A DNA stretch of 21,981 nt from a virus. The notes below the pieces were generated by a model. That model saw only the letters and a list, made by a program, of their open reading frames with translations, did no database searches and was not told where the DNA came from. Positions within the stretch are counted from its first letter, which is position 1. Every line of letters begins with the position of its first letter. The position numbers were made by a program, and so were the translations under genes. The DNA lies in the IMG/VR virus record IMGVR_UViG_3300032287_001168, positions 1 to 21,981 of that record; one strand, given 5' to 3'. Shown here piece by piece: positions 1-20,502 of this stretch.

Positions 1-85
1 CTAAAGGTTATAGGAGTACCCACAACCAACGCACCAGTAGTGTTACATGTTATAGAATTGGTAGAACTGTTAGTTCTAGTTACTG
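1..85 (-). repeat. Recurring module cut by the window edge
   Basis: Encodes NSSTNSITCNTTGALVVGTP followed by ITF, the start of a further copy. It shows that the module array continues to the left of the window, so the giant gene has not reached its end here. Confidence 0.7.
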
Positions 86-3000
86 TACCGGTTGAACCCA
101 ATATCATTTTATTACCATTATGGTACACTATAGGATCAGTCCATACTGCACCAGTACCTACCTGAATGATTACATACATACTGCCGGTACCGTCTGATAA
201 CGCCATTGTAGGACCAGCAGTACCTGTACTGATATTATATGTTTGTGATATGGTTATTCTCTTTGATACTTGGCTTACAGTTTTAACATAATATATAGTA
301 TCTTCTAATATTCCACCGAAGGTCAAACCTTGGAATGTTATTGAACTATTCACTACGAAATCATCTACATTTTCACATAATATAGAATTATTTGCTGAAT
401 CTGTCTCAGTAGCAATTGTGTCTTTTGGTTGCGAATTTGGTCTAATAACACCGCTACCATTATATATGGTTGCTGCATAGTTACAGTTAACTTCAATCTC
501 ATTCCAGCCAGTGGTAGTGTTTATTCTGATTGGATCTGTTTTTGTACTTGCTTTAACTAACTGATTACCGTTTCCTACTTCATAAACATCAATTCTCAAT
601 CTATCTGACACTGGCAAGAATGTTAAAGGTGATGCTAATGTTAGTACATTGTTGATCCAATCGACAGAATATGTAGGTTCGTAAACTGTTGTTGCTAGTC
701 CAGTAGTCCCATTGATAACATATACTGCTAAAGATATAGGATTTTCCGCGACATAGCTGAAGTCATAATTCACTTGGGTACCTGATGTAGGAATGTATTC
801 TCTAGAGACTACATTATATCCCACGTGTGCATAAACAGCAGCATCCCAATCAGTGCCAGGTCTAGTAGCTACTGTCATAGTCATCGTATCAGTAACGACA
901 CCAGGAACCAATTCCTCAGGACCGTAGCCAAACTCAAACTCTGCTCCTTGTACATCATATACAGTTGCTTGAGGTGCAAACACTGATGATTCAGTCCAAG
1001 TAGTTCCGTTATCAGAACTTACTAAGATAGTGTTATTGTCACCCACTGCGATCCAAGTACTATCATCTGCATTAAATGTTATACCATTCAAGTTTTCAGT
1101 AGTTCCTGAAGTCATAGTAGCCCATGACGTACCATTTGTTGAACGTCTTACTATACCGCTGTCTCCCACTGCAATAAATCTATTATTTGCAAAATGAACA
1201 TCACGCAGAGTGAGCGTTCTAGGGTATGCGTACATATAAGTTCTTTCAGACGGTTGTGCTGCACTTAGCGCAATTACTGCTCCGCCTGCAGTCAAACTCA
1301 ATTGAACATTATTACCAGATATGGTTTTTATGTAGTATGTAGTACCTGAAGAAAGATTGTTGAATGATGAAGTAAATCTTACAGGATCGTTCACTGAGAA
1401 GCCTACAATATTACCAAGATTCAATTGATCAGCAACATCATTTACCCCAGATATATACACATCATTTACTGCATACCAATTTCCACCGTCAGTACTATTG
1501 AAGATTGCACCGTCTTCACCAACTGCAACTATAGTAGTGCTGCTATTGGTTACTCCGTAAAATCCTTTGGAGCTGATGAAAGGTATTTGTCCCCAATTAA
1601 TTCCGTCGCTACTTATAAACAATAAGTTTACATTTACTGTCACACCTATTCCGCTTGAATAGTCTATTTCTTGACCTTTACCCACAACAACAAAGCCAGT
1701 ATAAAGAGTCATGTCTACACCCTTAACTCCATATAATATATTAGTTAAGTCTGGATTAGTAAACGCAAAACGTTGTCTCCAAATGTAAGTATCATCACTT
1801 GATACAATGTTCTCTCCTACCGCTACCCATGTATTATTTAAGTATGAAACAGAATTTAGGTACAATGAGCTTACACTCAATGCGGTAAAATCATATGAGG
1901 TTATGTCATACGGCACTGATCCATATGGGGTATAGTAACCATTTGTAGTCCATGTAATGCCGTCTTGACTTCTGAATAACGGGGTAGCTGCATTATTAGT
2001 CGTAAGAATATAATAGCCACCTTCATATATGATATCAGTAGTAGACAAATTAGTATTAGCTAGCTTGTCAATTTCCCATTGATTTGCATCCGTGCTTCCA
2101 ATTACGCTTGAGTATGTAGGTGTGTCCGCGGCTGCAAGATAAGTTACTCCATTCCATACTACTGAGTTAATATCAACTTCAGTAGGGTAAAACGGCTGAT
2201 CTTGTAGTATAGTGTCTAGTGCAAATTGTTGGGCTGGTGCAAATGCATTTCCTAGATACGTACTATTAGGATAAGTCACCCCCTCAAACAATTGAGTCAA
2301 ATCTACACCGGGCATATTATCTGTAGGTTGATAGTAACCCAAAACGCGATCCATTGCATTTAATCTACGATCACCGGACGTCAGTAATTCCCATTTGCCA
2401 AAAATAAACTCAGTGTCGTTATTGCTTACTACACAAACATAAACTCTATTATTGTACTTGACAATACTTTGATTAAAGATGAATGGTTCGGGTAACAATG
2501 CGTATGAACCAGCCTTAGCCATTGTATATGACTGTGGCGCTAATGCCGTAGTCAAGCTAATCGGTGAGCCACCAGGCATATCACTTACTTGAAGTGTCGT
2601 TGCAGTAAAATTAACATTGTCTATGATATAATATGTTTGTCCCACAGTCATACCACCAGTAATATTACCGGTGAATACAACTGCATCATTCACTGAGAAT
2701 TCACTAGTAGAACTTACAGTAATTATATCAGTAGAAGCTTGTGTTTCTGTTACAGTAGTCTGACTGATGCCTATATAGGGCAATGTTAATCCACTTACAG
2801 CTACTGTCAGCAACTGATTTTCATATAATGCAAATTCAGTAGATGAAATTACTTTCAAGTAGTATTGGTTTGTTTCGCCCGGTACTAAACCATTACAGAT
2901 TACATCTAAAATCTCACCAGTAGAACTTATACTGTTAACAGTTAACGTTAAGTTGTTTAGCGGCGTAGTTCCACCAATATTAGCTCCGTTAATAGTAATC

Positions 3001-6000
3001 ACATTGTCTACTGCATAACCTGATGCACCATTGGTAATAATTACCCTATATCCTCCTAAGATATAACTTACGTCAAATACAGGAGTGCTTAATGGGGTTT
3101 GATCAACCGTCACACTAGAAGTCACTATCATGACGTTGGTACCGGTACCAGTACCAACCAATGTTATTAAGCTACCGGTAGTCGTCAATGATATATTAAA
3201 TGTGTTTCCTACCTTATTTCGAACATAGTATGGTATATTTTCTGATATGCCTGTAGGTAAAGTGCTTCCTGTAGTTTTTCTAAATTCTACTTTTGTTAAG
3301 TTTGCTGGAGCAGCAGCAACAGTTACTGTGCCCGGTGTTCCTGCACCAAAGCTTGACACATTCTGTTGTGTATTTCCAGGGTTGATCGCTGATCCGCCGG
3401 GTGCAGAAGAACACACTTGTATATAAGGAAATCCAGTTCCTGTCATCAAACCGCTAGCGGTAGTGACGGTGACTACTGTTCCACCAGGCGAGTCAGACAC
3501 AGTGAAACGATGATCATCGATAATTTCTTTTACGAAATATTCTAAATCAATAATCAATCCACCAATACTAGATCCGGAGAACACAATTGGCATATCAATG
3601 AATAATGATTCGGTCGTATCACATGTGATAGCATTTATAGACGATGATGTATAAGTTGCTTCAATCTCTATGGTACCTGAACCAACTACATAATAGGTAG
3701 TTCCTGAAACTAAGCTTCCTATACTAGTAGACACTTCAACTGGCATATTGACATAAATATCAGTCAGTGCCAAATATATGTTAGTTATAACAATACGATA
3801 AACATTAACAACTACTGTGTCAATAGTACGCTGTCCAATTAGTGCTGCGATATCGCGGGAAATCAGTGTAGTGTCAGTACCAGTGATTCCAGGATATTGA
3901 CCAGATGTGTTGTACAACGTAAATCTTTGACCATTTACTTGACCTGGACTTACTGGCAAACTGACGTTTACTATCATATTATTACCAGTTGCAGTGGTTA
4001 AAGTAACAATATCTACTTGGCTAGTAAGAAGTGCAGATGTATTTGCAGCAGGCGATACTGCTGTTAATGATATTACTGGACCGTTAATTGTAGCAGATAC
4101 ACGCAACGAATTAGAACTAGTAATTGCAGAAACATAGTACGTAGTACCGGATGTTAACCCGCCAAATGTAGTTCCTGAAACTCCTGCTTCCACCATTGTG
4201 TTAATAATTATTGGATCATTGACTGACATTTGGTTAGTATCAGCATCTACGATCAGCGTATATTGATATTGCCCTACAGCCGGAGTTACACCAGCAACTT
4301 CTAGAATATTGTATGTTAATGGATTTTGTTTTTCAGACATTGTGAATGTCTGACTGTCTACTACGGTAGTTATATAGTAAACTTGATTCTCAATCACTCC
4401 ACCAAATACACCGTTGTTAGGTAATGTGTTGTCACTTCCTGTAAAGAAGATAGGTAAGTTAATATAGAACCCTGCAGTACCCCCGCTTCCAGTTAAGTTT
4501 AATGGAACTGTCAACTTGTTAGTCACCGCTTGAGTCGCAGTAACGTTCATTATACCAGGATAGTTAACTGTAATAACAGCAGCATCAGTTACCTCACCAA
4601 CGTAGCATTCTAGACCAGCTGGACCTATTGTATAGCTACTCAATGCCTGAATTGGACTACCAGTCGAATTCTGTGACACGGTGAAATCAGTTTGATTTAA
4701 AATACTATGTACGTAGTAAACTGCTTCATTTACTAACCCACTAGTACCCACTTCACCTTTGAATTTTACTGGCATGCCGATATAGAAACCTAGCGTACCA
4801 CCAGATGCATTTGGATTACCAGATCCATCATCTTGAAGATTTAGTCTTATACAATCATTAGCATCAATAGTTGATGTAACAGTTCTGATAAAGGAACTAT
4901 ACGTTACCGTTCTATCGTTTCTTACATCAACGATCTCAAAAGCTACCCCTTGGGCGCTTGCTAATATAGAATTAATTGGAGGTTGACTACTTTCTAGAGA
5001 AATTGAAGAACTTGCTACTGACTCGCTATTCGAATATGTTCCAGCATAGTATGCTCCGTAGTATCTTCCGGCTGCCCATTCAATAATATCTGAATTGTAG
5101 GTTGTTCTATCAAAACGTAGCACAATGTTATTTTCTCTGACTGGAATCGCAGAAGATATTGCGCTTGCTCTTGCACCTACATTTAACTTATGCGTGCCAG
5201 TGCCAGTACTATACAAAGTAATTCTATCATGATCATTTATAGAATCTGTATAATTTGCATATAGACCAACAACTACTGATGGTACTGTTTCTAGCACATT
5301 AATATAATACCATTGATTATGTTCTAATCCACCCACCGAAGTACCAGATGATACCTTATATTGAATAAGGTCCCCTGTTTGTAATAGTGGTGCAAACAAT
5401 TGAATAGTGTTGAAAGTAGTATTAACCTGAGTACTTTCAAAGTTGATAACCACCGCCGGATCGATTACTATCTTAGGTAGCACCGCATAACCTTGTCCTG
5501 GATCTTCTACATCAATTCTTAGTACACTATCCAAATTCATGACCGCAGTCAGTACCGCAGGTCTAACTGGTGCTGGATACAATATAGGATCAATGTAAGC
5601 TGTTACTTTTGGAGGTTCAGGATATGCTCTACCGCCGTCCAATACTAGCACCGCCGGCAAGTCTATGTAAATCAATGTGTTTGGTACATGTGTACTTATT
5701 GAAGTTCCATTTACACCACGTGTCAATCCGGATAACACATTCAATGATCTATCTACTGATGCATACCCAATCTGTTCTTCACCTATTTGCACTATGCCAT
5801 TGATCGGGAAACCTTGAGCGTTATCAACTGAGAACTCGTTTGAGTTTAACGAAATATAAGATTGCAATGTAGCTATTTGTACATCAGACTGTCCTGTTAA
5901 GCTTACTCCGTGATTTTGGTACCATTGAGAATATTCAGGTTGTTGCCATATTGGATTCTCTGGTAAGAAAGTATTGACATTGTTTGCATTTTGATAAACC

Positions 6001-9000
6001 AACTCAGGAGTAATAAATTGTTTAGTAGCTGCACTATATTTTGATGGTAAATCAAAATCAGTAATGTCGCCTTCAAATACGTCTGTTCCTGTATATTTGA
6101 ATAAGAATTCTTTTATGACCACGTGATATGGTTTTATTTCATTCAAGTAACCTGATAAGAAGTCTTGATTATCACTTTGAAATACTTCAATAGGACGTAA
6201 CTCTCTAATGGTATGACTTACATCTATAAATGATGTTTTATTCAACCAAGGCAAATAATTTTGATTTTCAGATGTTTCGCTTTGTATATATTCGAACAAT
6301 AATATCAAACTCTTGTTTCTATAAATCAATAAGTCTTGAGTATAAATTTGTTCGTTAAGAGCCCTGATAATTTTTTTAGTTTCTTCGCTAGGATAAACAT
6401 CATATATATCGGTGTCAAAGAAATTGTCGCCAAACCCTAATCTTACGGACGAGTAATCCCATAATGCAGACTTGAACGCGATAGTACCTCTTTGTAATCC
6501 TATTCGTCTCCAATTACCTGTGATTTCAAGTATGTATGTTTCTGCTCTACCAGTGTCATTTGCAGAAACCGTGACGATAGTACCTGACGGTACACTCAAT
6601 GTAGATAAGTCTGCATATATTGATACTTGTAGGGCAGATTTAGTATTGTTATCGTATCTCGGTGCCCACCAGTTTACGAATTCCCAATAATCAGCAGTAT
6701 CATAAAAATCACCTGATGTAGTCAAGAATGAAGCCTGTCTAATCTCAGTTATAGGATATTGAGCAAGTACAGTGTTTGCATATTGTAGATAGTTTTTCAA
6801 TGCGGTGAAGCGATTATAGAAAAAGCTTTGTCTAGGTCTTGCTAATATACCAGATTGAACTGCTTTAGGAAGATATGGATTAGGAACAACTTGCCCTGAA
6901 TCATCAACTCCAGACAAACTATCTAATAGTCTGTTGTATAATGAAACCGGTGGATCGGACGATTCAACTGCACCAGTGTGTGTGGCTGAAGTGTGATCAA
7001 GGGCGTACAGTGTTGTAGGTATTCCCGGTAAGAAATCACTTGCATATCCGTCACGAATTAGATTGTATTGTTGATGAGAAGGATCATCGTTTGATCCTGT
7101 TGCATATCCTATGTGTAATACACTATCATTTGCATTAAAATAATCACCTGAATTATACAATCCATACACACTAGGCAATAATGGGGTGAAATAACTTACA
7201 CCAGATCCTTTTGGATTTTCTATATAGGACGCAATAATAGAGTCTGATAGTGTTTTTCCATTATCTGCAAATATTAAGTTTGTATTTCTGGCCCAGAAAT
7301 AATAGACCGGTGTTAGTGCGCCGGCAGCGTTTATTATATACTGGATAGAATACACTGTGGTGTCATATGGAGTACCAGGACCTTGGTATGCAGTAGGAGG
7401 TACATTGCTTGCTACCCAGCTATAAACTGCTACATCACTACCAGGGAATAACGTAGCCCAATATTGACTATTATACGATACATCATTGTTCTGATGATAG
7501 TTTACATATCGCATATTTCTTGTATTCAACCAAATCTGACCAAGCTGTGCTGCTCCCCAAACAATCCCACCTTGTACAACTCCGGAGTTATTATACTGCG
7601 CAGGATCGTCATTAGAAACGATATCGATATTTTGTCTTGCTGCACCTAATATTTTTCCTTGAAGTGGATCAATATAATCCAAATTAATCAATGTATTATT
7701 TGTCTCTGCACTGAATAGTTGAATGTTAAAGATTCTATTAGTATCAACTACTGGAGCGGAGTATCTATATAAAGACCAATCTTTAACACCTGTACTGTTA
7801 GCATATGTTATTACTTGTCCTGCTAACTCAGTTCCAGTGGTGCTACCGTAATCATTAGGAGTGCCAATAATTACTGAGTACTGATCAAAGTCTACTGAAG
7901 TTCCATATCTAGGTTGATTACTATAAACTAGGTTTTGTGCATTAACACTTTGAGCATATACAAATTTACCAGTGTTCAACAGATTCTCATCATATTGAGA
8001 AACATAATCGAACATGTACACCGCGCCTGCATTTGGATATTGATCTATCCATTGTGTTGCATTGTTGTCAAATAATGTATCGTCATCTTGATTTTCATCA
8101 TCAGAGAAATCAAATGTTGTAGCAGCATATCTTGTGCCAACCGGGGCGCTTGCAACAAATGAGTCAAACTCATTAAATTTTACTAAGGTACCAAATTGTG
8201 TAGGTCCTTGTCTATGCGGACAGTGAATCTTTTGCGTATTGACATATATTTCAATACCCAATTCTCCTAACGTACTGGTGTCCAATACACCTAAAACCAG
8301 CTTCTCATTGACTTGTGCTAGTTCGGTGTCTGTCAAAGACAGGACTAACTTACCATCCAAATTACTAGCAGATATATTAGTTATGTTAGATGAGTTTATT
8401 GCGTTTGCAACAGTAGTTGCATCTCCGGCTGGTAGATATACAAGATATCCATTTATCAACATTGTTCTAATAGTAGTAACATTACAATCAGTAGTTCCTG
8501 TTATGGTTCCGTACTTGGCGCCTGCATCAGTGAATCTGTATACCGCACCTTCTTCAAATTGAGAATTTAATTGAAACGGTGCACCAACTATTACTTCACT
8601 AACATGAGTTGTTGTGCTTACACTAATACCAAATTGAGATCCTACTTGCGGTGTCTCACCTGTTGTGAGCGTTTGTGCTAATGTAAAATTGTTACTACTC
8701 ACTGTTATTATATCACCAGCATTTAGTGAACCAGTGTACACTAGTGTATTGCTCACTACTGCATAATTATTATCGGTTATTAATGTTCCATTTCTAGACA
8801 CGAATATAGGAGTAGTTTGTACATACGTAGGAACTGATATTGATGCCACTGTGTTAATAGCAATTGGAGTAACACTATCTCTTGTTTCTTTAATTGAAAC
8901 AGTGCTTCCCACTATGCTGTTTACATAGTAAACCTTATTTGCAATAATTTCTGTACCGGCTAGACCAGAGCCAGTAAACATTATAGGATCGTCAACTGAT

Positions 9001-12000
9001 ATACCTGATACGCTGCTCAATGTAATATAGTCACCTACTGCATTTGTTGCTGTTGCAGTAACTGTAGTGACTGCAGGTGACCAAGCAAGCTGTAGAGTTT
9101 GTGTGGCGGGTGATATGCTAGAATATTGAATTTCAATGTTTTGAACAGTGCGATCAAATACGTATGCGTATCCCCAATTATCTACGGTAGCACTATAATC
9201 TTGATTAGGCGCACCAATTACTACACAGTCTCCGTAATAATCTACCCCAATGGAATAACCAAAATTATCACCCGATACCAAACCACCTATAGTTAGATAA
9301 GTAGAATACTCGAATTCACCGGTTAACTGAGATTTTCTATACACATACACTCTGTTTAGGTCGATAGCTGAAATATACAACCAACTTTGATCGCCTGACA
9401 TTGCCACTGCACTGCCCCAATTGGTCGATCCGCCTTGTGCAGCTATTGCAGTTTGGTAAACTACTAGGTCGTCAGATGCAATAGTATTATTAAGTTTGTA
9501 AATATGTACTTTAGGTGTTCCTGTAGGCTCTGATATAGCATACAAATCTCCTGCATGTGCAATAGTTGCACCAAAACTAGTGCCAGATGATAGTGTTTGT
9601 GCTAACTGATATGAGTCAGTAAGATCATTATAGGTATATCTATATACGTACCCTGCGTCAGCATCGCCTATCAAGTATCCCAACTGTTGTCCTGTAGCTA
9701 CTGCGCTACCATAAGATTGAGTCGATGTTTTTGTAAATTTACGTTGATACTGATAGTTTATACTCTTTCTGTATACTCCCCATGAACCACTTGTGTCGGT
9801 ATCTACCCACACGGTGTTCTTTATGAATTCACTATCTAACAATGGTAAGGTGTCAATATCTGCAGGAGTATCAACTCTCTGAGAGGTAAATTTCATACCA
9901 ACACCTTGACCTTGGATCAGTTTAATACTAGGATCTAATGTTTTGCTTATCAACACCTTGTATTGATCGATGACGATAGTAACCAAATAATAGCCATCTA
10001 TTGAAGGATCAAGATTTACAATAGAGAAAGGCTGATATTGTACTAAGTTATGTGGATTATTAAATGTTATTGTTACAGTATCATTTAAGTTATTTTTTGC
10101 GCTAAGAACTTGCCCTATTGCAACAGGAGTGAACACTTCCCATTTTTCTAAATAATTTGCCAACCATACATAATCTCTTACATAGAAATTCTGTATAGGT
10201 ATTACAACACCGTTTTGATTGACCCCTAACGGTAGTTGAGCGTAGAAGAATGATGACATTTTTACGTCATTATAATTAACGTACCCTGCATCGGGGAATA
10301 CTAATGTAGGAGTACTACTGTTTACTGTAGGTAATACGTTTACATCGGATATTGGTCTTCCGTAGTTAAATAGAGAGTATATAGGAACTTCTTGTTGTAC
10401 CCCATTGTTATACAACCCATTAGTCAATCCTACTATGGCAGGATTTCCGGTCATGTAATTTTGATTGACCTTAAATTCTATAAAGTTACTGTTTAATACT
10501 CCACCAAATTCTCCTGACTTAATAGCCCAGTTTTCATATATGTCATAGTCAATTCCACCTTGAGGTAGTCGGGCACCTTTAAATGCGCTAGCAGCATTTA
10601 GTGTGCCCTTAGACTTGATAAGATTTCTATAGACATTAACCTGAGTAATGTCTGTCAAATCTGCTAATGCCAAATAATCCCTAGGTCTATATCCAATTAG
10701 ACTAAAACTTAATAGGTCTGCATCATTTTCAAGATTGGCTTGATTAATGTCGTAGTATAAAGTGCTTTCATAACTACGTGTACTTGAGTTAGGTAGCAAT
10801 CCCTTTTGAATCTCATCATAATCAGTGCGCTTCCAATCTTCTTCGGTGAAAAGCTCACTTGCTTGAATGATCTTTAGCGCAGTCCAATACTTGTTTTTGT
10901 ACTTTACTATCTCACCTTTAGTATATTTGATGGTTCTATTCCATTCCTTAATATTATCTTGATTATAGATAAATCCAGAAACATCAACTGTACCGTCCCA
11001 TGCCGCAGATTTTGTACCACGAACCGAGATACGAGTTTGGCGTAGTCCTGTAGTTAGATTGTATATTATGTCACCGAACAATGTCACGTTGTTGAAAACG
11101 ATACCGTGTTCAAAATTACTTACATTAAATTGCCCATATGATAGAGTGTCTCCGTCATTTAATGCTGTGGCAGTAAATGCAGTTCCTTCACGAATTATTG
11201 CTAAATCTTTAGACTGTACAGGATATAAATTTTGATTTAAAATAAAGTTTGTTTGTTGAATCGTTAACGGTTGAACGATATTACTATCTTTATTAATTTT
11301 TAATGTTCTAGCAGCAGGATTTAATGTCACAACACTGCCTGTTTCCCATCCAGTCTGAGCCCAGTACAGGAACTCGGCTGTCATTTGATTCCAGTTAATT
11401 TCTAGATCATTGTCTTGTACATCAAAAACCATTCCAGCATCAACTAGATAAGCAGCATAGTCATTTAAGAACTGTGCTACTTCCTGCACTGTGTACATTA
11501 TTGTGCCGTAAGGTACAATTTGCTCTTGATTATAATGATCTACTGTAATTTTAACTTTTAAATTTTCAACTTCAATGTTGATAAAATTTCCTGCATATTT
11601 AGGCTTTAATGTTCTAAAATACGCAGACATTTGAGAATTACCAAACACACTGAATCCACCGTCTACAATTTGAATTATGACGGATGAGTAGACGATTCTG
11701 TTGAAAGGTTGATTGTCATACAACAAAACTGCGTAGCTTTCATCTGGTATTAATAGAGAAGCATTTCTACTATTAGGTGTTCCTTTTTCTACGTAGAACT
11801 TTAATAATGTTTTGTCACTAAAACCAGCAAGTCTGTAAACTAATCTCACATCCATGTTAGCTAGTAGGGTCTTAATATTTTCAGTTGCTGCTACACCTGC
11901 TTGCTTTTCATAATCAACTATCCAATTGATATAGCTAGTTACAGGAGTACCAGAACCGTATACATCAATATCAGTCAATTTCAAATGGCTACGATCATTA

Positions 12001-15000
12001 AGTAGATATTGATTAAATTCAACATTGTATTTGTAGTGATCAATATCAACTGCTAAGTTGAAGAATTCAGCAGGCTTCATTAGAGCCATCAATCTAATTA
12101 AATCAAACGGATAAGAACTGCTTCTACGATAACTAAATTCTACCGGAGCATCGTCTCCCACTTTCCAATCACGTTGGAATAAGTTTTGATTAAAATTACC
12201 TACTATACAATACAGAGGTGACAATAAGTTACCTGCGCTATCTACTGGTATCACATCTAGCAAGCCAGGACGCACCGCGTTTTTTATAGTTATTGGGTTA
12301 CCGTTATTCCAATCAATGCCCTCAGCAAGGTCATTCCATAGCACTAAGTTGTCACTTGTGTAGGGGGCAGGTCCATATCTAGAAGTCCACCAATTTGGTT
12401 GCTCCGTGAAACCCAACATTTCCCATGGAGTAGTGTTAGGAGTAGTAGTGTCGTAGAAGAATTGATATATGCCTCTCCAATATCCTTGGAATATAGGGTC
12501 GTTATTAATTGCATTTCCACTTTGGAAATAATTATATGTAAAGCTGTCGTTCGTGTTGTATAGTTGTTTCTTGTAGTTTAATCTATTCTGTCCTATCCAA
12601 TTCAAGAATGCAGGAGTATACATCATCAACCATTCTTCGTTAGAGTAGTCAATATCTCTAAAGAATCCGGGTACTATCTCATACGCTTGTATAGGGATCA
12701 CTGCACTTAGTTTTAAGTTATTATAGATTCTCTGTTCGAACTCAAGCAGAACCTGATCTCTAAAATCAGTTAAGACTCCACTGATCGGATCATATTCTCC
12801 ATATAGTCTATTGTATGACCCATCGTGTCCTTTTATGAAATAAGTCGGGGTGGTGTAATCGCTATCTAGTATTACTGTAGGGATGTGTGCAGGATATAAT
12901 CCTAATTTGGTAGGAGTATTGGGAACATAAGATCCGTATGTTTGTGTATACTCTTTGATGGTTATGCTATCACCAGGCAACAAGTCTAGAGTGACAGTCA
13001 ATGAAGGTGTAGTATCACTTATAGTATAATCCTGCCCTTTAATTAACTGTGCAAAAGTAGTTACTCCATTAGTAGTTCTTGTTAAGTATACAAGTACACC
13101 ATAATAGTTTGCGGTCGCAAAATCGTAGATTCTAGAAAGTGGATAAATGCTTACATCTAGACTATTAGCGAAAGAATATACATTTGTTATATACGCAGCC
13201 TTGCTGGGCAGCATATCGCTCCAGAAGAATGGTTGAGAATCTGTCTTAGACGCAGTGATCTGATCCATTGCATCATCTAGTAATACAGAAGGATTATATA
13301 TCTGTGTATAATCTGCATTTTCAACAGTGTTAACTAACAAGTTTTTAAACTTGATGTACTCTCTACTGTTGAACAACAAAGCGTTAAACAGATTATGTTC
13401 TTGTTTTCTCAAGAAAGCACCGGGCAATGCCAACGATGCACTATTTTGAATAATGCGATTTCCCCATGGTACTAAGTTACCCAAGTCCCTAAAGTTATTA
13501 GGTCCAAAGACATTACCATTAGTATTGGGATTATTATAGAAAATACTTTGATATTGTCCTCTAATATCACCTATATTTGCAGTAGTCAAATCTGCGTTTA
13601 ACGGGTTGTTATTCAGATTGACAGGTATTTGATAGTAAGCAGTTTGACTTACTTGATTGCTTAAAAGCTGAATTTGAATTACGGTGTTAATATTTGGTAA
13701 TGATGTTAATGTTACCACTGTTGTATTTGGTTCTACCGTTACAGTATATGAACTAGCAGGCTGTCTTACGTTGTTGATATAAACTGCAATGGTAGGCCAA
13801 TTTGTGTTGCCGCCCGGCAACATTGAAATATCACAACGGTAAGTATTGGTTGGTACTAACACATCATAATCAAATTCAAAAATTTGATATTGTACGCTAG
13901 GAGATACTGCTGTTTGCCAACCTATTTGTCTAACGCGATCTTCTCGGTTTCTATATTGAAATACATACCCTGTATTAACCAATTGAGTAATAGGTGTAGT
14001 GCCGCTAACATAATCGAAAGTGTCTACGTTTAATGAAACATCAAAACTTATATCACCTACGTTGTCTACCGCACTGTATCGTATAGGAAATCCTAAAATA
14101 CTATCATCTAATCCAAAACCAACACCGTATGCAAATAATTTACATCCTATAAATGAAGTACCTACGTAAACATCAGAGTTACCAAAACTTATATTGTTTT
14201 CATCAAATACATCAAAAAACGGTGGCTGATTTACTGTAATTTTTTGTTGCGCTTCTATCCAATCTAGTCCATCAAAATAAAATTCTTTACCTTGATTGTA
14301 GTATCCACGTAGAGCAACAGTTTGTTGGTCTGGTAGTACTAGTCCATTTTCTACTTCAGTTAAAGTAATTACTGGGGTTGATGATCCAGTAACGCTAGAA
14401 AATCTTGAGACATAAATTTTATTTTTTACATTTTCATTAGTATCTGCTGTAAAAACTACAGTAGATCCATCAAACAATGCATAATTATCATTGGTTGTGT
14501 CAGTTCCTATTAACTGAACTGCTGATGTAGTAGGGATATATCCGGTGTCACCGATATCCCATCCAACTTCAAGAGTCAATGTAGTAGTACCTGAAATGGC
14601 TAATATTTGAGTGTTGGTTGGTAGCTTATTTGCCGAATCAGAAACATATTGTCCTACAGTAAATGCACCAACAACATCATCGGCTAATACAGTTACAAGT
14701 GTGCTTTGCGGAGCCCAAACTAGAGTACAACTTCCGGATCCAGTCGTAGGAGAAAAAAGATCGCCATATTTAGTAGTAGCTAGTTTAAATTCAGTAGGGC
14801 TAACTACTTCATAAACAAAATATGTAGTACCGGTCACTGTTCCGCCTATTGTAGGTACAGAGTTAAAAATTATAGAGTCACCTACTCTAAAACCTGATGT
14901 ACTATTACATGTAAAAATCTTTGTAAGTGCTGATGCTGCCGTAACTGTCCTGGTAGGTGTATAATTAGTTGAGGTTATTGAAGCATTATATGATGTATAT

Positions 15001-17123
15001 ACCTCTACATCGGGGTAATAGTTTTCTTGGCCGGCTACTAAGCTAAACGCATCCGTCGTTCTAACATCAATGAAGTCTACCGGATCTTTTCCTTCAGCAC
15101 CTGAGTTGAACAATCTAATATTTGGATAAAATTCAACGATAGGTCTTTTTGCTTTATACTCACTGGTTGCATACAATGTAATCAACTCAGGATTGTTATT
15201 GTATTGTGCTGTTGCATTAATAACATCAATGTGAAACCAACGATTACTACGAGACCATGAATTTCTATCAATAGAGTTTCTTGCAATAGTGATATAGTCT
15301 GGTGTTATAGGTATGTACGAATTACCTTCCCATGCACTCATTCCCCATGGCGTAGTATCCCATGGCACATATGCGGTAGAAGTAAAAGACTCAGGTGCAA
15401 TCAAATTTTGCACAGGTAATAATTCAATAGAAGTACCTACACTTTCTACATAATACTCGCCGGCTTTATACGATACAGGAGTTATATTACCTTGAAACGA
15501 AACTTTTAGTCCGTTAGTAAATACAATACCATTTGTTGAGGTGTATTGCGTTTTTCCTAAGATATCTCTTTCAACATCAATAGTATTGAGAGTGTTACTT
15601 TCGATTAACCGTATAATACCTACTTTATCTGCTGATATACTATCTTGATAATATAAAGTATCTAGCGGAGCACTTATATAGGGAATCAGTACAATAGCGC
15701 CTGCATCATTTCTATAGAATGATCTAGAAATCCATTGAGTTCCATACACAGCAGTAATTTTTTCATTTACTGGAATCTCACCGTTAGGTATCAATCTAAT
15801 TACCGGATTTGAAGGATCACCAACGTAAGTAATAGTGTAAAAATTCTCACTAACATTAGTATAAAAACCTTCTTCAAATTGCCCTTGATTGGTATACCCA
15901 GTCATTGATCCGGATGCAGTACTTAATGGTATTTGACTTCCGTACGGCTTTAACGATATAGAAAACTGTGTAGGGCTTGTAATAGATTCTACATAATATA
16001 AGGTATTTGGTGCAGTCTCTGAGTAGTTTTGTATTCCACCGAATTCAGTTACTCCGGAAAAAGTGATAGAATTTCCTACTACTAAATTTGCTGTACTGTT
16101 GCAAGTTATAAGATTTCCTGATGCGTTAGTAGCAGTAACTGATATAGTCTGTATTGCATTTAGGTCATTATTGTAGTCGTATGCAGTATAGTCATAGAAA
16201 TTAGACACATACCCAATTTCATATGGTTCACCTGTGTTATAGAACATAACACGTAACCCTTGAAGTGCGGTCACCCCATCTATGTTTACTACTTCACTTA
16301 ATGGTTTTCCATTAATTGTACTGAACGGAAACGTGCATACTACGTCTGTTAAGTTATTTCCTGGGAAGTTATATTGATTTTGTGCATCTTTTTGTGGCAC
16401 TGTAAATGTAACTATGCCCTCACTAGCACCGTTATTATCTACTCCTAAAACATCACGTGTTTGTAGGTTAGGTTGAGTTGGACTAAACCCAGTTACACCT
16501 GGTTGACCTTGTATCCAAAATTGACCATCCTGATTTACTGCAAACGAATATGTACCTCCACGCAACAATGTTAGTGTGGGGTTTGTAGTACCTTGACTTT
16601 CTGCTACGGTTATAGGAACTATATTGTAGCCATTTACTACGTCATAAACAATGTAGTCATTTGAAGAAAACACTGTCTCGGCTGATACTACAACTCTCTC
16701 AGGTCCTTCAGGTATCCAATAGTATTGGTTGAAGTTAATGATTTTATCTAGATTTGTGAACGAATCCCAAGAATAGAATTCGCTAGTGAACATTCTATCG
16801 TTATTGTTAGTAACTCCGCCTTCGACTTTTAGCGCATCAATTATGCCTGGATAACTAATAAAGTCTTGTGCAACTGATTCATTAGTCTTAGTAAACACTA
16901 CTCCCGGATCGAGTTGATAGTCTTTTCGTGTTTTAGTTGGTTCGGTGACATAATAGTCTTTAGCATTAATACCGTAACCAAATTTACTACCAATGTATCC
17001 TTCAATCTTTCTCGTTTCAGGTTGAGATACTATCTGATCTAACGATGCAGCTAAAAACTGAGCGTTAGATGGTGTTTTGAATATCTCTGGTAAAAAATTT
17101 AATGTTCTGATTCTGGTTGCCAT
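1..17123 (-). CDS. Giant modular virion structural protein (at least 5,707 codons, C-terminus beyond window)
   Basis: One minus-strand frame runs from ATG 17123-17121 to the left edge without a stop. Translation checked near the start, at 15.9-16.2, 14.7-15.0, 9.2-9.8, 8.0-9.1, 5.7-5.85 and 0.96-1.6 kb and at bases 3-80 stays in the same register. An in-frame TAA (17132-17130) just upstream fixes the start; no strong ribosome site is seen, and gp6 ends 10 bp earlier, so co-transcription or coupling is likely. Its N-terminus (MATRIRTLNFLPEIFKT) matches my memory of large 'virion structural proteins' in uncultured and cyanophage-type T4-like genomes. Domains in order by residue: conserved start (1-180), degenerate beta module (about 183-250), recurring modules (about 323-406, 722-802), long Trp/Tyr/Asn-rich part, FG-GAP propeller (2471-3089), RGxNGT and GxGY motifs (about 3760-3890), recurring-module cluster (about 3893-4870), Asp-box propeller (about 5010-5380), more modules (about 5567 onward). 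No signal peptide or transmembrane segment is evident. A baseplate-attached fibre or adhesin role is inferred. Confidence 0.9.
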   Translation of the reverse strand, partial: MATRIRTLNFLPEIFKTPSNAQFLAASLDQIVSQPETRKIEGYIGSKFGYGINAKDYYVTEPTKTRKDYQLDPGVVFTKTNESVAQDFISYPGIIDALKVEGGVTNNNDRMFTSEFYSWDSFTNLDKIINFNQYYWIPEGPERVVVSAETVFSSNDYIVYDVVNGYNIVPITVAESQGTTNPTLTLLRGGTYSFAVNQDGQFWIQGQPGVTGFSPTQPNLQTRDVLGVDNNGASEGIVTFTVPQKDAQNQYNFPGNNLTDVVCTFPFSTINGKPLSEVVNIDGVTALQGLRVMFYNTGEPYEIGYVSNFYDYTAYDYNNDLNAIQTISVTATNASGNLITCNSTANLVVGNSITFSGVTEFGGIQNYSETAPNTLYYVESITSPTQFSISLKPYGSQIPLSTASGSMTGYTNQGQFEEGFYTNVSENFYTITYVGDPSNPVIRLIPNGEIPVNEKITAVYGTQWISRSFYRNDAGAIVLIPYISAPLDTLYYQDSISADKVGIIRLIESNTLNTIDVERDILGKTQYTSTNGIVFTNGLKVSFQGNITPVSYKAGEYYVESVGTSIELLPVQNLIAPESFTSTAYVPWDTTPWGMSAWEGNSYIPITPDYITIARNSIDRNSWSRSNRWFHIDVINATAQYNNNPELITLYATSEYKAKRPIVEFYPNIRLFNSGAEGKDPVDFIDVRTTDAFSLVAGQENYYPDVEVYTSYNASITSTNYTPTRTVTAASALTKIFTCNSTSGFRVGDSIIFNSVPTIGGTVTGTTYFVYEVVSPTEFKLATTKYGDLFSPTTGSGSCTLVWAPQSTLVTVLADDVVGAFTVGQYVSDSANKLPTNTQILAISGTTTLTLEVGWDIGDTGYIPTTSAVQLIGTDTTNDNYALFDGSTVVFTADTNENVKNKIYVSRFSSVTGSSTPVITLTEVENGLVLPDQQTVALRGYYNQGKEFYFDGLDWIEAQQKITVNQPPFFDVFDENNISFGNSDVYVGTSFIGCKLFAYGVGFGLDDSILGFPIRYSAVDNVGDISFDVSLNVDTFDYVSGTTPITQLVNTGYVFQYRNREDRVRQIGWQTAVSPSVQYQIFEFDYDVLVPTNTYRCDISMLPGGNTNWPTIAVYINNVRQPASSYTVTVEPNTTVVTLTSLPNINTVIQIQLLSNQVSQTAYYQIPVNLNNNPLNADLTTANIGDIRGQYQSIFYNNPNTNGNVFGPNNFRDLGNLVPWGNRIIQNSASLALPGAFLRKQEHNLFNALLFNSREYIKFKNLLVNTVENADYTQIYNPSVLLDDAMDQITASKTDSQPFFWSDMLPSKAAYITNVYSFANSLDVSIYPLSRIYDFATANYYGVLVYLTRTTNGVTTFAQLIKGQDYTISDTTPSLTVTLDLLPGDSITIKEYTQTYGSYVPNTPTKLGLYPAHIPTVILDSDYTTPTYFIKGHDGSYNRLYGEYDPISGVLTDFRDQVLLEFEQRIYNNLKLSAVIPIQAYEIVPGFFRDIDYSNEEWLMMYTPAFLNWIGQNRLNYKKQLYNTNDSFTYNYFQSGNAINNDPIFQGYWRGIYQFFYDTTTPNTTPWEMLGFTEQPNWWTSRYGPAPYTSDNLVLWNDLAEGIDWNNGNPITIKNAVRPGLLDVIPVDSAGNLLSPLYCIVGNFNQNLFQRDWKVGDDAPVEFSYRRSSSYPFDLIRLMALMKPAEFFNLAVDIDHYKYNVEFNQYLLNDRSHLKLTDIDVYGSGTPVTSYINWIVDYEKQAGVAATENIKTLLANMDVRLVYRLAGFSDKTLLKFYVEKGTPNSRNASLLIPDESYAVLLYDNQPFNRIVYSSVIIQIVDGGFSVFGNSQMSAYFRTLKPKYAGNFINIEVENLKVKITVDHYNQEQIVPYGTIMYTVQEVAQFLNDYAAYLVDAGMVFDVQDNDLEINWNQMTAEFLYWAQTGWETGSVVTLNPAARTLKINKDSNIVQPLTIQQTNFILNQNLYPVQSKDLAIIREGTAFTATALNDGDTLSYGQFNVSNFEHGIVFNNVTLFGDIIYNLTTGLRQTRISVRGTKSAAWDGTVDVSGFIYNQDNIKEWNRTIKYTKGEIVKYKNKYWTALKIIQASELFTEEDWKRTDYDEIQKGLLPNSSTRSYESTLYYDINQANLENDADLLSFSLIGYRPRDYLALADLTDITQVNVYRNLIKSKGTLNAASAFKGARLPQGGIDYDIYENWAIKSGEFGGVLNSNFIEFKVNQNYMTGNPAIVGLTNGLYNNGVQQEVPIYSLFNYGRPISDVNVLPTVNSSTPTLVFPDAGYVNYNDVKMSSFFYAQLPLGVNQNGVVIPIQNFYVRDYVWLANYLEKWEVFTPVAIGQVLSAKNNLNDTVTITFNNPHNLVQYQPFSIVNLDPSIDGYYLVTIVIDQYKVLISKTLDPSIKLIQGQGVGMKFTSQRVDTPADIDTLPLLDSEFIKNTVWVDTDTSGSWGVYRKSINYQYQRKFTKTSTQSYGSAVATGQQLGYLIGDADAGYVYRYTYNDLTDSYQLAQTLSSGTSFGATIAHAGDLYAISEPTGTPKVHIYKLNNTIASDDLVVYQTAIAAQGGSTNWGSAVAMSGDQSWLYISAIDLNRVYVYRKSQLTGEFEYSTYLTIGGLVSGDNFGYSIGVDYYGDCVVIGAPNQDYSATVDNWGYAYVFDRTVQNIEIQYSSISPATQTLQLAWSPAVTTVTATATNAVGDYITLSSVSGISVDDPIMFTGSGLAGTEIIANKVYYVNSIVGSTVSIKETRDSVTPIAINTVASISVPTYVQTTPIFVSRNGTLITDNNYAVVSNTLVYTGSLNAGDIITVSSNNFTLAQTLTTGETPQVGSQFGISVSTTTHVSEVIVGAPFQLNSQFEEGAVYRFTDAGAKYGTITGTTDCNVTTIRTMLINGYLVYLPAGDATTVANAINSSNITNISASNLDGKLVLSLTDTELAQVNEKLVLGVLDTSTLGELGIEIYVNTQKIHCPHRQGPTQFGTLVKFNEFDSFVASAPVGTRYAATTFDFSDDENQDDDTLFDNNATQWIDQYPNAGAVYMFDYVSQYDENLLNTGKFVYAQSVNAQNLVYSNQPRYGTSVDFDQYSVIIGTPNDYGSTTGTELAGQVITYANSTGVKDWSLYRYSAPVVDTNRIFNIQLFSAETNNTLINLDYIDPLQGKILGAARQNIDIVSNDDPAQYNNSGVVQGGIVWGAAQLGQIWLNTRNMRYVNYHQNNDVSYNSQYWATLFPGSDVAVYSWVASNVPPTAYQGPGTPYDTTVYSIQYIINAAGALTPVYYFWARNTNLIFADNGKTLSDSIIASYIENPKGSGVSYFTPLLPSVYGLYNSGDYFNANDSVLHIGYATGSNDDPSHQQYNLIRDGYASDFLPGIPTTLYALDHTSATHTGAVESSDPPVSLYNRLLDSLSGVDDSGQVVPNPYLPKAVQSGILARPRQSFFYNRFTALKNYLQYANTVLAQYPITEIRQASFLTTSGDFYDTADYWEFVNWWAPRYDNNTKSALQVSIYADLSTLSVPSGTIVTVSANDTGRAETYILEITGNWRRIGLQRGTIAFKSALWDYSSVRLGFGDNFFDTDIYDVYPSEETKKIIRALNEQIYTQDLLIYRNKSLILLFEYIQSETSENQNYLPWLNKTSFIDVSHTIRELRPIEVFQSDNQDFLSGYLNEIKPYHVVIKEFLFKYTGTDVFEGDITDFDLPSKYSAATKQFITPELVYQNANNVNTFLPENPIWQQPEYSQWYQNHGVSLTGQSDVQIATLQSYISLNSNEFSVDNAQGFPINGIVQIGEEQIGYASVDRSLNVLSGLTRGVNGTSISTHVPNTLIYIDLPAVLVLDGGRAYPEPPKVTAYIDPILYPAPVRPAVLTAVMNLDSVLRIDVEDPGQGYAVLPKIVIDPAVVINFESTQVNTTFNTIQLFAPLLQTGDLIQYKVSSGTSVGGLEHNQWYYINVLETVPSVVVGLYANYTDSINDHDRITLYSTGTGTHKLNVGARASAISSAIPVRENNIVLRFDRTTYNSDIIEWAAGRYYGAYYAGTYSNSESVASSSISLESSQPPINSILASAQGVAFEIVDVRNDRTVTYSSFIRTVTSTIDANDCIRLNLQDDGSGNPNASGGTLGFYIGMPVKFKGEVGTSGLVNEAVYYVHSILNQTDFTVSQNSTGSPIQALSSYTIGPAGLECYVGEVTDAAVITVNYPGIMNVTATQAVTNKLTVPLNLTGSGGTAGFYINLPIFFTGSDNTLPNNGVFGGVIENQVYYITTVVDSQTFTMSEKQNPLTYNILEVAGVTPAVGQYQYTLIVDADTNQMSVNDPIIINTMVEAGVSGTTFGGLTSGTTYYVSAITSSNSLRVSATINGPVISLTAVSPAANTSALLTSQVDIVTLTTATGNNMIVNVSLPVSPGQVNGQRFTLYNTSGQYPGITGTDTTLISRDIAALIGQRTIDTVVVNVYRIVITNIYLALTDIYVNMPVEVSTSIGSLVSGTTYYVVGSGTIEIEATYTSSSINAITCDTTESLFIDMPIVFSGSSIGGLIIDLEYFVKEIIDDHRFTVSDSPGGTVVTVTTASGLMTGTGFPYIQVCSSAPGGSAINPGNTQQNVSSFGAGTPGTVTVAAAPANLTKVEFRKTTGSTLPTGISENIPYYVRNKVGNTFNISLTTTGSLITLVGTGTGTNVMIVTSSVTVDQTPLSTPVFDVSYILGGYRVIITNGASGYAVDNVITINGANIGGTTPLNNLTLTVNSISSTGEILDVICNGLVPGETNQYYLKVISSTEFALYENQLLTVAVSGLTLPYIGISQTTVTETQASTDIITVSSTSEFSVNDAVVFTGNITGGMTVGQTYYIIDNVNFTATTLQVSDMPGGSPISLTTALAPQSYTMAKAGSYALLPEPFIFNQSIVKYNNRVYVCVVSNNDTEFIFGKWELLTSGDRRLNAMDRVLGYYQPTDNMPGVDLTQLFEGVTYPNSTYLGNAFAPAQQFALDTILQDQPFYPTEVDINSVVWNGVTYLAAADTPTYSSVIGSTDANQWEIDKLANTNLSTTDIIYEGGYYILTTNNAATPLFRSQDGITWTTNGYYTPYGSVPYDITSYDFTALSVSSLYLNSVSYLNNTWVAVGENIVSSDDTYIWRQRFAFTNPDLTNILYGVKGVDMTLYTGFVVVGKGQEIDYSSGIGVTVNVNLLFISSDGINWGQIPFISSKGFYGVTNSSTTIVAVGEDGAIFNSTDGGNWYAVNDVYISGVNDVADQLNLGNIVGFSVNDPVRFTSSFNNLSSGTTYYIKTISGNNVQLSLTAGGAVIALSAAQPSERTYMYAYPRTLTLRDVHFANNRFIAVGDSGIVRRSTNGTSWATMTSGTTENLNGITFNADDSTWIAVGDNNTILVSSDNGTTWTESSVFAPQATVYDVQGAEFEFGYGPEELVPGVVTDTMTMTVATRPGTDWDAAVYAHVGYNVVSREYIPTSGTQVNYDFSYVAENPISLAVYVINGTTGLATTVYEPTYSVDWINNVLTLASPLTFLPVSDRLRIDVYEVGNGNQLVKASTKTDPIRINTTTGWNEIEVNCNYAATIYNGSGVIRPNSQPKDTIATETDSANNSILCENVDDFVVNSSITFQGLTFGGILEDTIYYVKTVSQVSKRITISQTYNISTGTAGPTMALSDGTGSMYVIIQVGTGAVWTDPIVYHNGNKMILGSTGTVTRTNSSTNSITCNTTGALVVGTPITF
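190..425 (-). repeat. Recurring module near the left edge
   Basis: Encodes ETDSANNSILCENVDDFVVN, SSITFQGLTFGGILED and TIYYVKTVSK, then a Gly/Thr-rich end. It has the full element order of the module, including the Cys after the first strand. Confidence 0.75.
985..2100 (-). other. Sialidase-type Asp-box (BNR-like) beta-propeller, residues about 5010-5380
   Basis: Asp-box motifs (SxDxGxxW type) recur: STDANQW (2076-2096, degenerate), SQDGITW (1950-1970), SSDDTYIW (1779-1802, degenerate), SSDGINW (1593-1613), STDGGNW (1476-1496), STNGTSW (1122-1142) and SSDNGTTW (996-1019). Between them lie WVAVGE, IVAVGEDGAIF, RFIAVGDSGIV and WIAVGDNNTIL strands, the usual 'xxAVGxxGxI' partner of each blade. 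Such propellers occur in sialidases and in non-enzymatic binding proteins. I see no sialidase arginine-triad context, so a binding or scaffold role is more likely than enzymatic activity. Confidence 0.8.
1240..1455 (-). repeat. Recurring module inserted inside the Asp-box propeller
   Basis: Encodes LGNIVGFSVNDPVRFTSSFN, then NLSSGTTYYIKTISGNNVQL and a GGAVIALSAA end. It lies between the STDGGNW and STNGTSW blades and matches the recurring unit well. Confidence 0.75.
2515..5445 (-). repeat. Dense cluster of recurring ~80-residue modules
   Basis: At least seven copies in series by eye, some diverged: about 5180-5445 (HNQWYYINVL), 4620-4895 (IGMPVKFKG, NEAVYYVHSI), 4290-4555 (INLPIFFTG, ENQVYYITTV), 4045-4275 (MSVNDPIII, GTTYYVSAI), 3660-3800 (VNMPVEVST, GTTYYVVGS), 3445-3655 (ITCDTTESLFIDMPIVFSG, LEYFVKEI), 3120-3345 (ENIPYYVRNK) and 2515-2760 (FSVNDAVVFTG, GQTYYIID). 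Consensus elements are a (V/I)xxPIxFxG strand, a GGL turn, a GTTYYVxxI strand, then FTVS and a Thr/Ser/Gly-rich end. The units read as tandem beta-domains forming an extended stalk-like array. Confidence 0.75.
2780..3065 (-). other. 'GxGYxVxDxITINGxxxGGTxPxNxLTLTV' module inside the repeat cluster
   Basis: Encodes YRVIITNGASGYAVDNVITI, then NGANIGGTTPLNNLTLTVNS and ISSTGEILDV. This fits a distinct small module that I recognise from other phage structural proteins. It lies between recurring units and runs into a diverged TYYV-like strand (GETNQYYLKVIS). Confidence 0.5.
5470..5840 (-). other. 'RGxNGT' module followed by 'GxGY..P.V' motifs
   Basis: The strand encodes EFSVDNAQGFPINGIVQIGE, EQIGYASVD, then LNVLSGLTRGVNGTS (5700-5840). 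This fits a short phage structural module of the form GFPxxGxIxIGxExIxY...LxGxTRGxxGT that I recognise from memory. It is followed by GGRAYPEPPKVTAYI and PGQGYAVLPKIVID, two copies of a GxGYxxxPxVxI pattern seen in phage fibre and baseplate proteins. It lies just before the dense cluster of recurring modules. Confidence 0.5.
6100..6400 (-). other. Charged helical segment ending in KPYHVVIKEFLFKYTG
   Basis: Residues about 3575-3675 of the giant protein read as helix-prone and charged, with EETKKIIRALNEQIYTQDLL, IYRNKSLILLFEYIQSETSE, DVSHTIRELRPIEVFQSDNQ and KPYHVVIKEFLFKYTG. This differs from the beta-rich modules around it. It could be an assembly or oligomerisation element. I cannot name a family. 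Confidence 0.45.
8061..8111 (-). other. Acidic loop DFSDDENQDDDTLFDNN in the propeller
   Basis: Seventeen residues containing seven Asp and one Glu, located between the sixth and seventh FG-GAP motifs. Such Asp/Asn-rich loops commonly bind calcium, but the spacing does not match a standard DxDxDG loop, so metal binding is only a suggestion. Confidence 0.4.
8841..9072 (-). repeat. Recurring module inserted inside the FG-GAP propeller
   Basis: Encodes TATNAVGDYITLSSVSGISV, then DDPIMFTGSGLAGTEI and ANKVYYVNSIVGS. It has the same pattern as the other copies and sits between the fourth and fifth FG-GAP motifs. This largely explains the roughly 570-bp gap between those blades. Confidence 0.7.
9900..13600 (-). 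other. Long aromatic/Asn-rich stretch of the giant protein with no recognised domain
   Basis: About 1,230 residues of the giant frame in which I recognise no family. The composition is unusually rich in Trp, Tyr, Phe, Asn and Asp. Stretches look globular rather than repetitive, such as PWEMLGFTEQPNWWTSRYGP and SYINWIVDYEKQAG, and there is a charged helical segment around KEWNRTIKYTKGEIVKYKNK. Several parts look like ordinary mixed alpha/beta domains, unlike the Thr/Ser/Gly-rich recurring modules on either side. This is the part where a fold search is most likely to give new information. Confidence 0.6.
14718..14960 (-). repeat. Recurring protein module, second clear copy
   Basis: Encodes TKIFTCNSTSGFRVGDSIIF, then IGGTVTGTTYFVYEVVSPTE and FKLATTKYGD. 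It has the same order of elements as the N-terminal copy: Cys-Asn-Ser-Thr, VGDSIIF, GTTYFV, SPTEF. Downstream, from about 14.6 to 13.6 kb, follow Trp/Tyr/Asn-rich beta-like segments that I cannot assign. Confidence 0.75.
15906..16155 (-). repeat. Recurring protein module, N-terminal copy
   Basis: Encodes ITCNSTANLVVGNSITFSG, then FGGIQNY, NTLYYVESITSPTQFSIS and LSTASGSMTG. This is a clear copy of the recurring unit whose pattern is ITCxSTxxLxVGxPIxFxG, then GGLxxGTTYYVxxI, then FxVS and a Thr/Ser/Gly end. A shorter diverged copy follows at about 15415-15600, with NGIVFTNGLKVSFQG and KAGEYYVESVG. Confidence 0.75.
16370..16580 (-). other. Degenerate 'RGxTYxFxVN...GVxNNG...GxVTFTVP' module
   Basis: The translation reads LLRGGTYSFAVNQDGQFWI, then GVTGFSP, VLGVDNNGASEGIVTFTVPQ. 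This resembles a small beta module I know from marine phage and bacterial proteins, which normally continues into a YYQCxxH...M type end reminiscent of a cupredoxin fold. Here the continuation is KDAQNQYNFPGNN, so the Cys/His/Met end is absent. The assignment is from memory of the pattern, not a search. Confidence 0.45.
16580..17123 (-). other. N-terminal conserved region of the giant protein
   Basis: About 180 residues opening with MATRIRTLNFLPEIFKT, followed by IEGYIGSKFGYGINAKDYYV, a TRKDYQLDPGVVFTKT segment, and an aromatic block YSWDSFTNLDKIINFNQYYW. I recall closely similar openings on very large structural proteins of uncultured aquatic T4-like phages. Being N-terminal and shared, it is the likeliest part to dock to the baseplate, while the later modular portion would project outward. 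Docking is inference; the pattern itself is seen in the sequence. Confidence 0.6.
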
Positions 17124-20100: not shown

Positions 20101-20502
20101 ACCGTTCAAATCAGTCAAACTTTGTGTCGTTTGTATGTTAACAACTTTTAAATATCCCTGTGCCGCTAAATTGCGTTTTGGTGTGTAGCTAACCAAATTA
20201 GCAAGTTTAATTACGCTGTCACGGCGCTCTGCCGTATCAATGAAATTTTCTCTAGTATTAAGGTCATTACGAAAAGCAAGACCTTGCCCCATGAACGCGA
20301 TAACATCTAATAGAGCAATGAATTCTGAACTTTCAATGTAGTCATTGAATGTTTCAGGGTAATATACGCGCAAATAGTCTATGAAACTTTTACGTAAAGT
20401 CTCATAGTCATAGCTTCTAAAATCAGCCTCACGGAAGGTTTGGTAGATTGCTTTCCAATCATTTACTCCAAACAGTGCGGATTGTCGTGAACTTGTAGCC
20501 AT
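17134..20502 (-). CDS. 6: Baseplate wedge subunit gp6 (T4 gp6-like, baseplate J-type), enlarged
   Basis: At 1,122 residues this is a long form of the T4 gp6 family (T4 gp6 is about 660). gp6 dimers form the continuous inner ring of the baseplate that links the wedges and rearranges on contraction. The N-terminus is a clear family signature: SALFGVNDWKAIYQTFREAD, then SYDYETLRKSFIDYLR, FNDYIESSEFIALLDVIAF and NTRENFIDTAERRDSVIKLA, within the first ~100 residues. Around residues 415-450 the segment TRYYTQNRMVNGEDYNNFPY resembles the baseplate-J pattern. The C-terminal ~80 residues (SELSAYLHNQVGELISSAVL, MAFGDLYEIKCSPYEIFVNA) are the other typical block. The middle (about 460-800) is Gly/Asn/Tyr/Thr-rich and probably holds the extra domain or domains relative to T4. 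ATG 20502 is supported by an upstream in-frame TAA (20517-20515). The giant gene begins 10 bp after the stop. Confidence 0.95.
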   Translation of the reverse strand: MATSSRQSALFGVNDWKAIYQTFREADFRSYDYETLRKSFIDYLRVYYPETFNDYIESSEFIALLDVIAFMGQGLAFRNDLNTRENFIDTAERRDSVIKLANLVSYTPKRNLAAQGYLKVVNIQTTQSLTDLNGTNLSNLPILWNDPANPSWLEQFNTIINAALVDTQRIGRPANVADLLGIVTSEYTLRIPNTALPIVPFTSTVDGITMGFELCSVTSVDADYMYEIPPAPSGLFNMLYRNDKLGYGSPNTGYFFYFKQGSLQNYDFTLEQQIANQVVNIDIQGVNNTDTWLYQLNTNNGTRLLWNKVENIYADAYLQTETSNRKIFSVGSRFNDQVSYVFGDGVFSEIPVGTYRAYVRFGNALTYTIDPLEMQGITVSFNYLNRLGKTEILTLGLSLQLPVSNAQAREPIAQIKQRAPTRYYTQNRMVNGEDYNNFPYTLYSSIIKSKAINRSSVGVSKNLDLLDPTGKYSSLNSFANDGALWQDDENGYLSLTINTVGNIITFLTDTLGSVLSSNRVSQYYTQNYPQYTINVASGDGTVYWKNSTVDANSNTGYFYNITDGSETPIPIGTYSTNNVKYITPGALVKFVPPSGYYFDSNNRLVSGIPGPSDQTYIWTTALGVIGDGYNNGQGSFVNGTGPVTLNGYVPNGCTITTVLPAFDNSLSNEIVQECIIRMELQQNFSLIFDNSLSIGQDRWSIKQNDSTNWFVQFISEPGNRYLVTYRSLRYYFGSVSDTRFSFERDKLVYDPFSGKILQDFIKMLSTNTQPTSNYPLSKDVQVNIVGQTVESDGYINDFEVEVASNDINNRGLILNPDFFYTITGYVNGGANTGIYVFFELVEDAINLSRYQIVPTNEVVQYQTKTQIEVVKYEYPLGQLFYAYGENTFWKTVQDSTVTTPYYILVEQPQYSIKPGRQGLQFQYRHNSNNTTRIDPATTNIIDLYVVTQSYYTQYTNYIQDTTNTVPIPPKPTINELNDEYGQLKNYKMLSDSVVLNSVVFKPLFGPKASANLRATIKVIKTSNTNASDSEIRSSVLASMNDYFAINNWNFGDTFYFSELSAYLHNQVGELISSAVLVPNDPNMAFGDLYEIKCSPYEIFVNAATANDIVVIAALTPAELQIR

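Follow-up and report, generated by a model that had tools for sequence, protein, structure and literature searches.

What kind of protein is encoded by a viral gene that runs for at least 17.1 kb without a stop codon, directly behind a gene for a baseplate wedge subunit? The window analyzed here, a 21,981-bp stretch of DNA that constitutes the entire IMG/VR record IMGVR_UViG_3300032287_001168, is largely taken up by a single open reading frame on the minus strand (17123..3), which opens with an ATG, continues for 5,707 stop-free codons and exits at base 3. Because the window is the whole record, its left edge is the end of the contig and the gene is truncated there. The initial annotation, made from the letters alone, had described one uninterrupted gene with a visible product of about 0.6 MDa, and both statements are borne out (626 kDa as computed here). 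It had also placed the left edge inside another repeat module, and residues 5684-5707 (24 residues) do lie within a module copy, residue 5684 being aligned to residue 5748 of a homolog (L107) in the repeat module alignment. Its further statement that the protein must be longer than its visible part agrees with the complete homologs, which are single ORFs of 6,346-6,597 residues (694-718 kDa, or 0.69-0.72 MDa) in 11 longer contigs whose downstream DNA was fetched; the complete window protein would comprise about 6,430 residues, or about 0.7 MDa. A twelfth closed homolog (G008) is identical in length to one of the others (G007), and a second batch contained further closed genes.

Phages bearing such a giant, a protein assigned no role more specific than "virion structural", are common in IMG/VR: a first scan of viral contigs identified 375 stretches encoding a relative, and a second at least 595. 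The best 80 of the 375 relatives, with identities of up to 73%, were kept, and all 80 loci are open from the start codon through the end of the fetched DNA. Ten contigs from bacterial genome records, mostly MAGs (Pelagibacter, Marinimicrobia and others; L197-L206), encode relatives as well, and are probably phage contigs that were binned there. Calculated in 500-codon bins, dN/dS between close pairs was 0.03-0.13 along the full gene; in pairs that include the window it was 0.07-0.19, with one bin, in the BNR region, reaching 0.32 and several being saturated. Since purifying selection spans the entire length, an assembly artifact is very unlikely, and the gene is real and its frame intact, as had been claimed. 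A chimeric join or a mis-assembly of repeats, to which a metagenomic contig carrying repeated modules could be prone, is for the gene class effectively refuted by the occurrence of the same full-length frame in more than 10 contigs of separate records, with low dN/dS throughout. Exact searches of the viral contigs with a 35-mer for leftward extension of the contig and with a 23-mer at the start codon of the giant returned no match, nor did a megablast search of the window against GenBank phages, and Tandem Repeats Finder detected no DNA-level repeats in the window, the protein modules having diverged.

The genes upstream of the giant, all on the minus strand, encode a gp6-like baseplate wedge subunit of 1,122 residues (17134..20502; phrog_10646, phrog_219, TIGR02243), a gp25-like baseplate wedge subunit of 149 residues (20554..21003; PF04965 above cut-off) and the C-terminal part (320 residues) of a protein whose gene is cut (21017..21979) and whose counterpart position in a relative (L004) holds a gp5-like hub/lysozyme gene of 1,258 residues. 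The order gp25-gp6-giant is kept in the window and its relatives. On the 3' side of the giant, one relative (L082) encodes a phrog_11259 member, a candidate Peptidase_G2 protein (borderline domain match) and a cluster of radical SAM genes. The Peptidase_G2 (autoproteolytic chaperone) candidate is a 405-residue protein encoded soon after the giant (L082 5480-6697) and is perhaps a fiber or spike; the cluster consists of three adjoining radical SAM/SPASM-type genes (L082 10893-14809) and may serve peptide or surface modification.

Three pieces of the giant match PHROG 10938 (E 2.9e-58, 1.1e-138 and 2.5e-53), a family of 3,324 positions annotated as "virion structural protein"; its PHROGs category is, however, "head and packaging", which counts against a role in the wedge. 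No NCBIfam family scored above cut-off for the giant. Orthologs in isolates of RaK2-like and other jumbo phages include RaK2 ORF070 (3,326 residues), SCTP-2 gp140 (3,807), PA5oct gp355 (3,857), Atu_ph07 gp180 (4,449) and Phosso 294 (4,555). All are colinear with the window protein over conserved blocks (residues 1-195, about 504-700, 875-2300 and 3100-3710; 22-45% identity) that make up a shared backbone of about 2,300 residues, the additional length consisting of inserted modules. They also share its place directly after gp6 or the positional equivalent, the SCTP-2 neighbors being annotated as hypothetical only. Against the 3,326-4,555 residues of the isolates, the window clade, at 6,346-6,597 residues of predicted length, is the longest found in the family. 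Shorter relatives annotated as virion structural proteins were already known; the window clade has a specific expansion of modules.

Evidence that these proteins are part of the virion comes from the orthologs. The record of the PA5oct protein notes ESI-MS/MS, and phAPEC6 gp245, a protein of 381.9 kDa with 17 unique peptides and 7.6% coverage, is numbered next after the wedge protein gp244 (PMC7247149). The RaK2 homolog (382 kDa) equals gp245 in size and, judged from size and position, gp245 would be an ortholog of the giant. The giant is thus probably a virion or baseplate protein. The initial annotation had proposed a baseplate-borne giant because of its place behind gp6: adjacency to gp6 and presence of orthologs in virions both stand, whereas a location in the baseplate itself is what we infer from them.

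The architecture of the protein, all features of which are given here with their minus-strand coordinates, alternates conserved blocks and modules. Conserved block 1 (residues 1-195; 16539..17123) carries the motif LPEIF..T..QFL, and its residues 1-120, modeled alone, have low AF2 confidence. A predicted cupredoxin-like beta-sandwich (residues about 151-507; 15603..16673) resembles rusticyanin (2cal; Z 9.8, rmsd 1.8 over 93 residues), and the many laccase rows in the structure search all stem from this one sandwich. It is split by a first module resembling the FCCH domain of E1 enzymes (residues 332-407; 15903..16130), which matches human UBA6 (7pvn_B) with a Foldseek probability of 1.00; a second such module (residues 732-798; 14730..14930) was found by iterated search. 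Conserved core block 2 (residues 875-2300; 10224..14501), the block with the strongest conservation and common to all isolates, includes a helix with a KGT..A motif (residues 2159-2187; 10563..10649) that may correspond to the KGT motif of gp7/gpI. Next come FG-GAP-type repeats (residues 2470-3107; 7803..9716; FG-GAP_2, E 3e-10) with FCCH-like module 3 inside (residues 2693-2759), and conserved core block 3 (residues 3100-3710; 5994..7826), which has a helical part and a KPYHv motif and is conserved in the isolates. The remainder, resolved by iterated search, comprises an array of several FCCH-like modules, partial copies included (residues 4100-4860; 2544..4826), YCF48/BNR Asp-box repeats (residues about 5092-5376; 996..1850) with one FCCH-like module inside (residues 5229-5290), and further FCCH-like modules (residues 5574-5707; 3..404), the last of which is truncated by the contig end. 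Two CBM5/12-like stretches were seen, one in core block 2 as a weak Pfam match (window 10875-10946; residues about 2060-2083) and the other by eye only (window 2409-2516; residues about 4870-4905).

The FCCH-like modules, of about 70 residues and of the type ..GGL..gttYYV.., occur 14 times in the visible part of the window protein, up to 17 times in complete relatives and not at all in the isolates (iterated search). Their score against E1_FCCH (PF16190; E 1.8e-5, 25.1 bits) falls under the Pfam cut-off of 29.5 bits, and they are therefore called FCCH-like rather than filed as FCCH. They share with the E1 domain this sequence similarity and, in the N-terminal model, the fold match, but are dispersed in a virion protein with no link to ubiquitin activation. 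Among the FG-GAP repeats, one exceeds the Pfam cut-off (PF14312; 40.5 bits against 23) and the others emerged from iterated search; going by repeat type, they probably form a beta-propeller. The YCF48/PSII_BNR match (PF14870; 17.7 bits) is under the cut-off of 27, the Asp-box repeats coming from iterated search only, and by the same reasoning they may form a propeller as well. FCCH-like, FG-GAP and BNR modules are undetectable in the isolates, unlike in the window clade. Protein length tracks the FCCH-like copy number (r = 0.93, 35 sequences), a correlation that is descriptive because the sequences are related and non-independent.

Is the giant, then, the counterpart of gp7? In T4, gene 7 follows gene 6, and in the window and the isolates the giant directly follows gp6, a position matching that of T4 gp7, P2 gpI and T6SS TssG after gp6, gpJ and TssF, respectively. 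P2 and the T6SS have counterparts of gp6 and gp7, and the wedges of T4 and the T6SS contain two gp6/TssF per one gp7/TssG (PMC6300606). Elsewhere in the five complete isolate genomes, we found no T4-type gp7 (phrog_964, phrog_17744), gpI (PF09684) or TIGR02242 protein, using profiles that recovered one or more of the controls T4, phiM12, X1 and P2. By eye, the KGT motif and the LP..FL N terminus of the giant resemble those of gp7/gpI/TssG, and the LP and KP similarities to gp7 are likewise by eye only; at about 6,430 residues against 1,032 for T4 gp7, however, the giant has no significant profile match. The T4 gp7, TIGR02242 and PF09684 profiles gave no match in the window and its relatives (TIGR02242 misses T4 gp7 too, which makes it a weak test), and HMMER searches of the giant with three gp7 landmarks (the N-terminal LP, KGT and HP motifs) returned nothing significant. 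In hhalign the KGT landmark alone fell on its expected site (residues 2166-2187) as the best match of the whole profile, with a P of 0.031 and a probability of 1.6%; at that P value, homology to gp7 is not claimed. As to the three-helix stem and trifurcation fold of gp7/TssG, Foldseek/VIA searches with models of residues 1-730 and 3090-3745 found no gp6, gp7 or TssG and gave weak tailspike matches, and profile searches of PDB sequences with the three conserved pieces and gp6 produced nothing relevant.

It is nevertheless plausible, from its position and from the absence of another candidate, that the giant works like gp7, and its most likely identity is a subunit of the baseplate wedge or an arm anchored there. 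On the strength of the position after gp6 and of the (gp6)2:gp7 rule, we put at roughly 0.6 the probability that the giant, as a virion protein of jumbo myophages, fills the place of gp7/TssG/gpI in the baseplate wedge. Its conserved blocks would anchor it on the gp6 dimer, with some six copies in each virion, and the FCCH-like barrels, the two propeller-type repeat sets, the cupredoxin-like sandwich and the C-terminal array would project as a large arm that may widen the baseplate and carry, or itself act as, cell-surface-binding elements. The gene would have grown as modules were inserted and duplicated in the gaps separating conserved blocks and at the C-terminal end.

The best surviving alternative, which we regard as rather unlikely, is that the giant is a tail-fiber or spike scaffold mounted on the baseplate, such as the trunk of the branched fibers of RaK2-like phages, and that another, unrecognized protein is the gp7 counterpart. 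FG-GAP, BNR and cupredoxin-like modules are in the style of adhesins and tail fibers, the RaK2 baseplate bears ramified fibers (PMC3622015), and the tailspike matches of the giant models, weak as they are, point the same way; yet the position directly after gp6 is conserved, and the five complete isolate genomes yielded no other gp7 candidate. We consider it improbable that the giant is a polyprotein cleaved after translation into several virion proteins. Its length and block structure would suit such a precursor, as would the borderline Peptidase_G2 domain of one downstream protein, but profile searches found no protease domain in the giant itself, and phAPEC6 gp245 is listed as one protein, albeit at a coverage that cannot settle cleavage. 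Tape measures usually rank among the longest phage genes, which is the reason to consider such a role, or that of an ejected protein, at all; this reading is disfavored, and has very little probability left, given that the modeled parts are mostly strands and loops, that the repeats are of propeller or barrel type, that the gene lies directly after gp6, and that a twofold variation of length among phages whose tails are similar is at least hinted at (136 nm and 3,857 residues in PA5oct, 128 nm and 3,326 residues in RaK2).

Very large genes directly behind gp6 are found in at least two phage groups. In the cyanophages S-CAM22 (L220; 18,822 bp, 6,273 residues) and S-SSM4 (L221/L233; 20,799 bp, 6,932 residues) the gene is similar to or larger than the window giant in size; like the latter, both genes and that of ACG-2014f, a 4,225-residue protein in the gp7 slot annotated as "baseplate wedge initiator", lie directly after gp6 and are modular. 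The T4 gp7 core is present in the S-CAM22 and S-SSM4 proteins, where about 2,850 residues are inserted between its KGT and HP motifs; giant gp7 proteins thus exist, and the gp7 slot spans at least 498 (Xanthomonas phage X1) to 6,932 residues. Whereas the gp7 core motifs of the cyanophage giants are clear, the window family does not match them significantly, and its sole matches to S-CAM22 lie in G/Y-rich repeats outside the gp7 core. The same proteins provide a yardstick for size. The initial annotation had called the giant extreme and several times larger than any T4 wedge subunit, which holds against T4 gp7 but not against the cyanophage proteins of the same slot. A 14,256-bp gene of phage WO was described in 2016 as the second largest phage gene (PMC5062602). 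The window gene, considered as a candidate for the largest, is ruled out by S-SSM4; it is large but sets no size record.

If the giant is a subunit in the gp7 slot, it would rank with the largest baseplate proteins known and be a site at which adhesin-like modules come and go, with a bearing on host recognition and on how far the wedge core tolerates huge insertions. Tentatively, and as something possible though short of likely, the gp7 slot may be a general site for megadalton-scale arms in contractile-tailed phages, two phage lineages (RaK2-like/jumbo and cyanophage) each having enlarged a wedge subunit to 6-7 thousand residues through modules placed between core landmarks; baseplates would thereby gain several MDa of modular surface-binding protein. 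In Salicola phage SCTP-2, the gene in the gp6 position, before the giant (L105 6609-15899), encodes 3,096 residues, suggesting that the gp6 slot too may be expanded.
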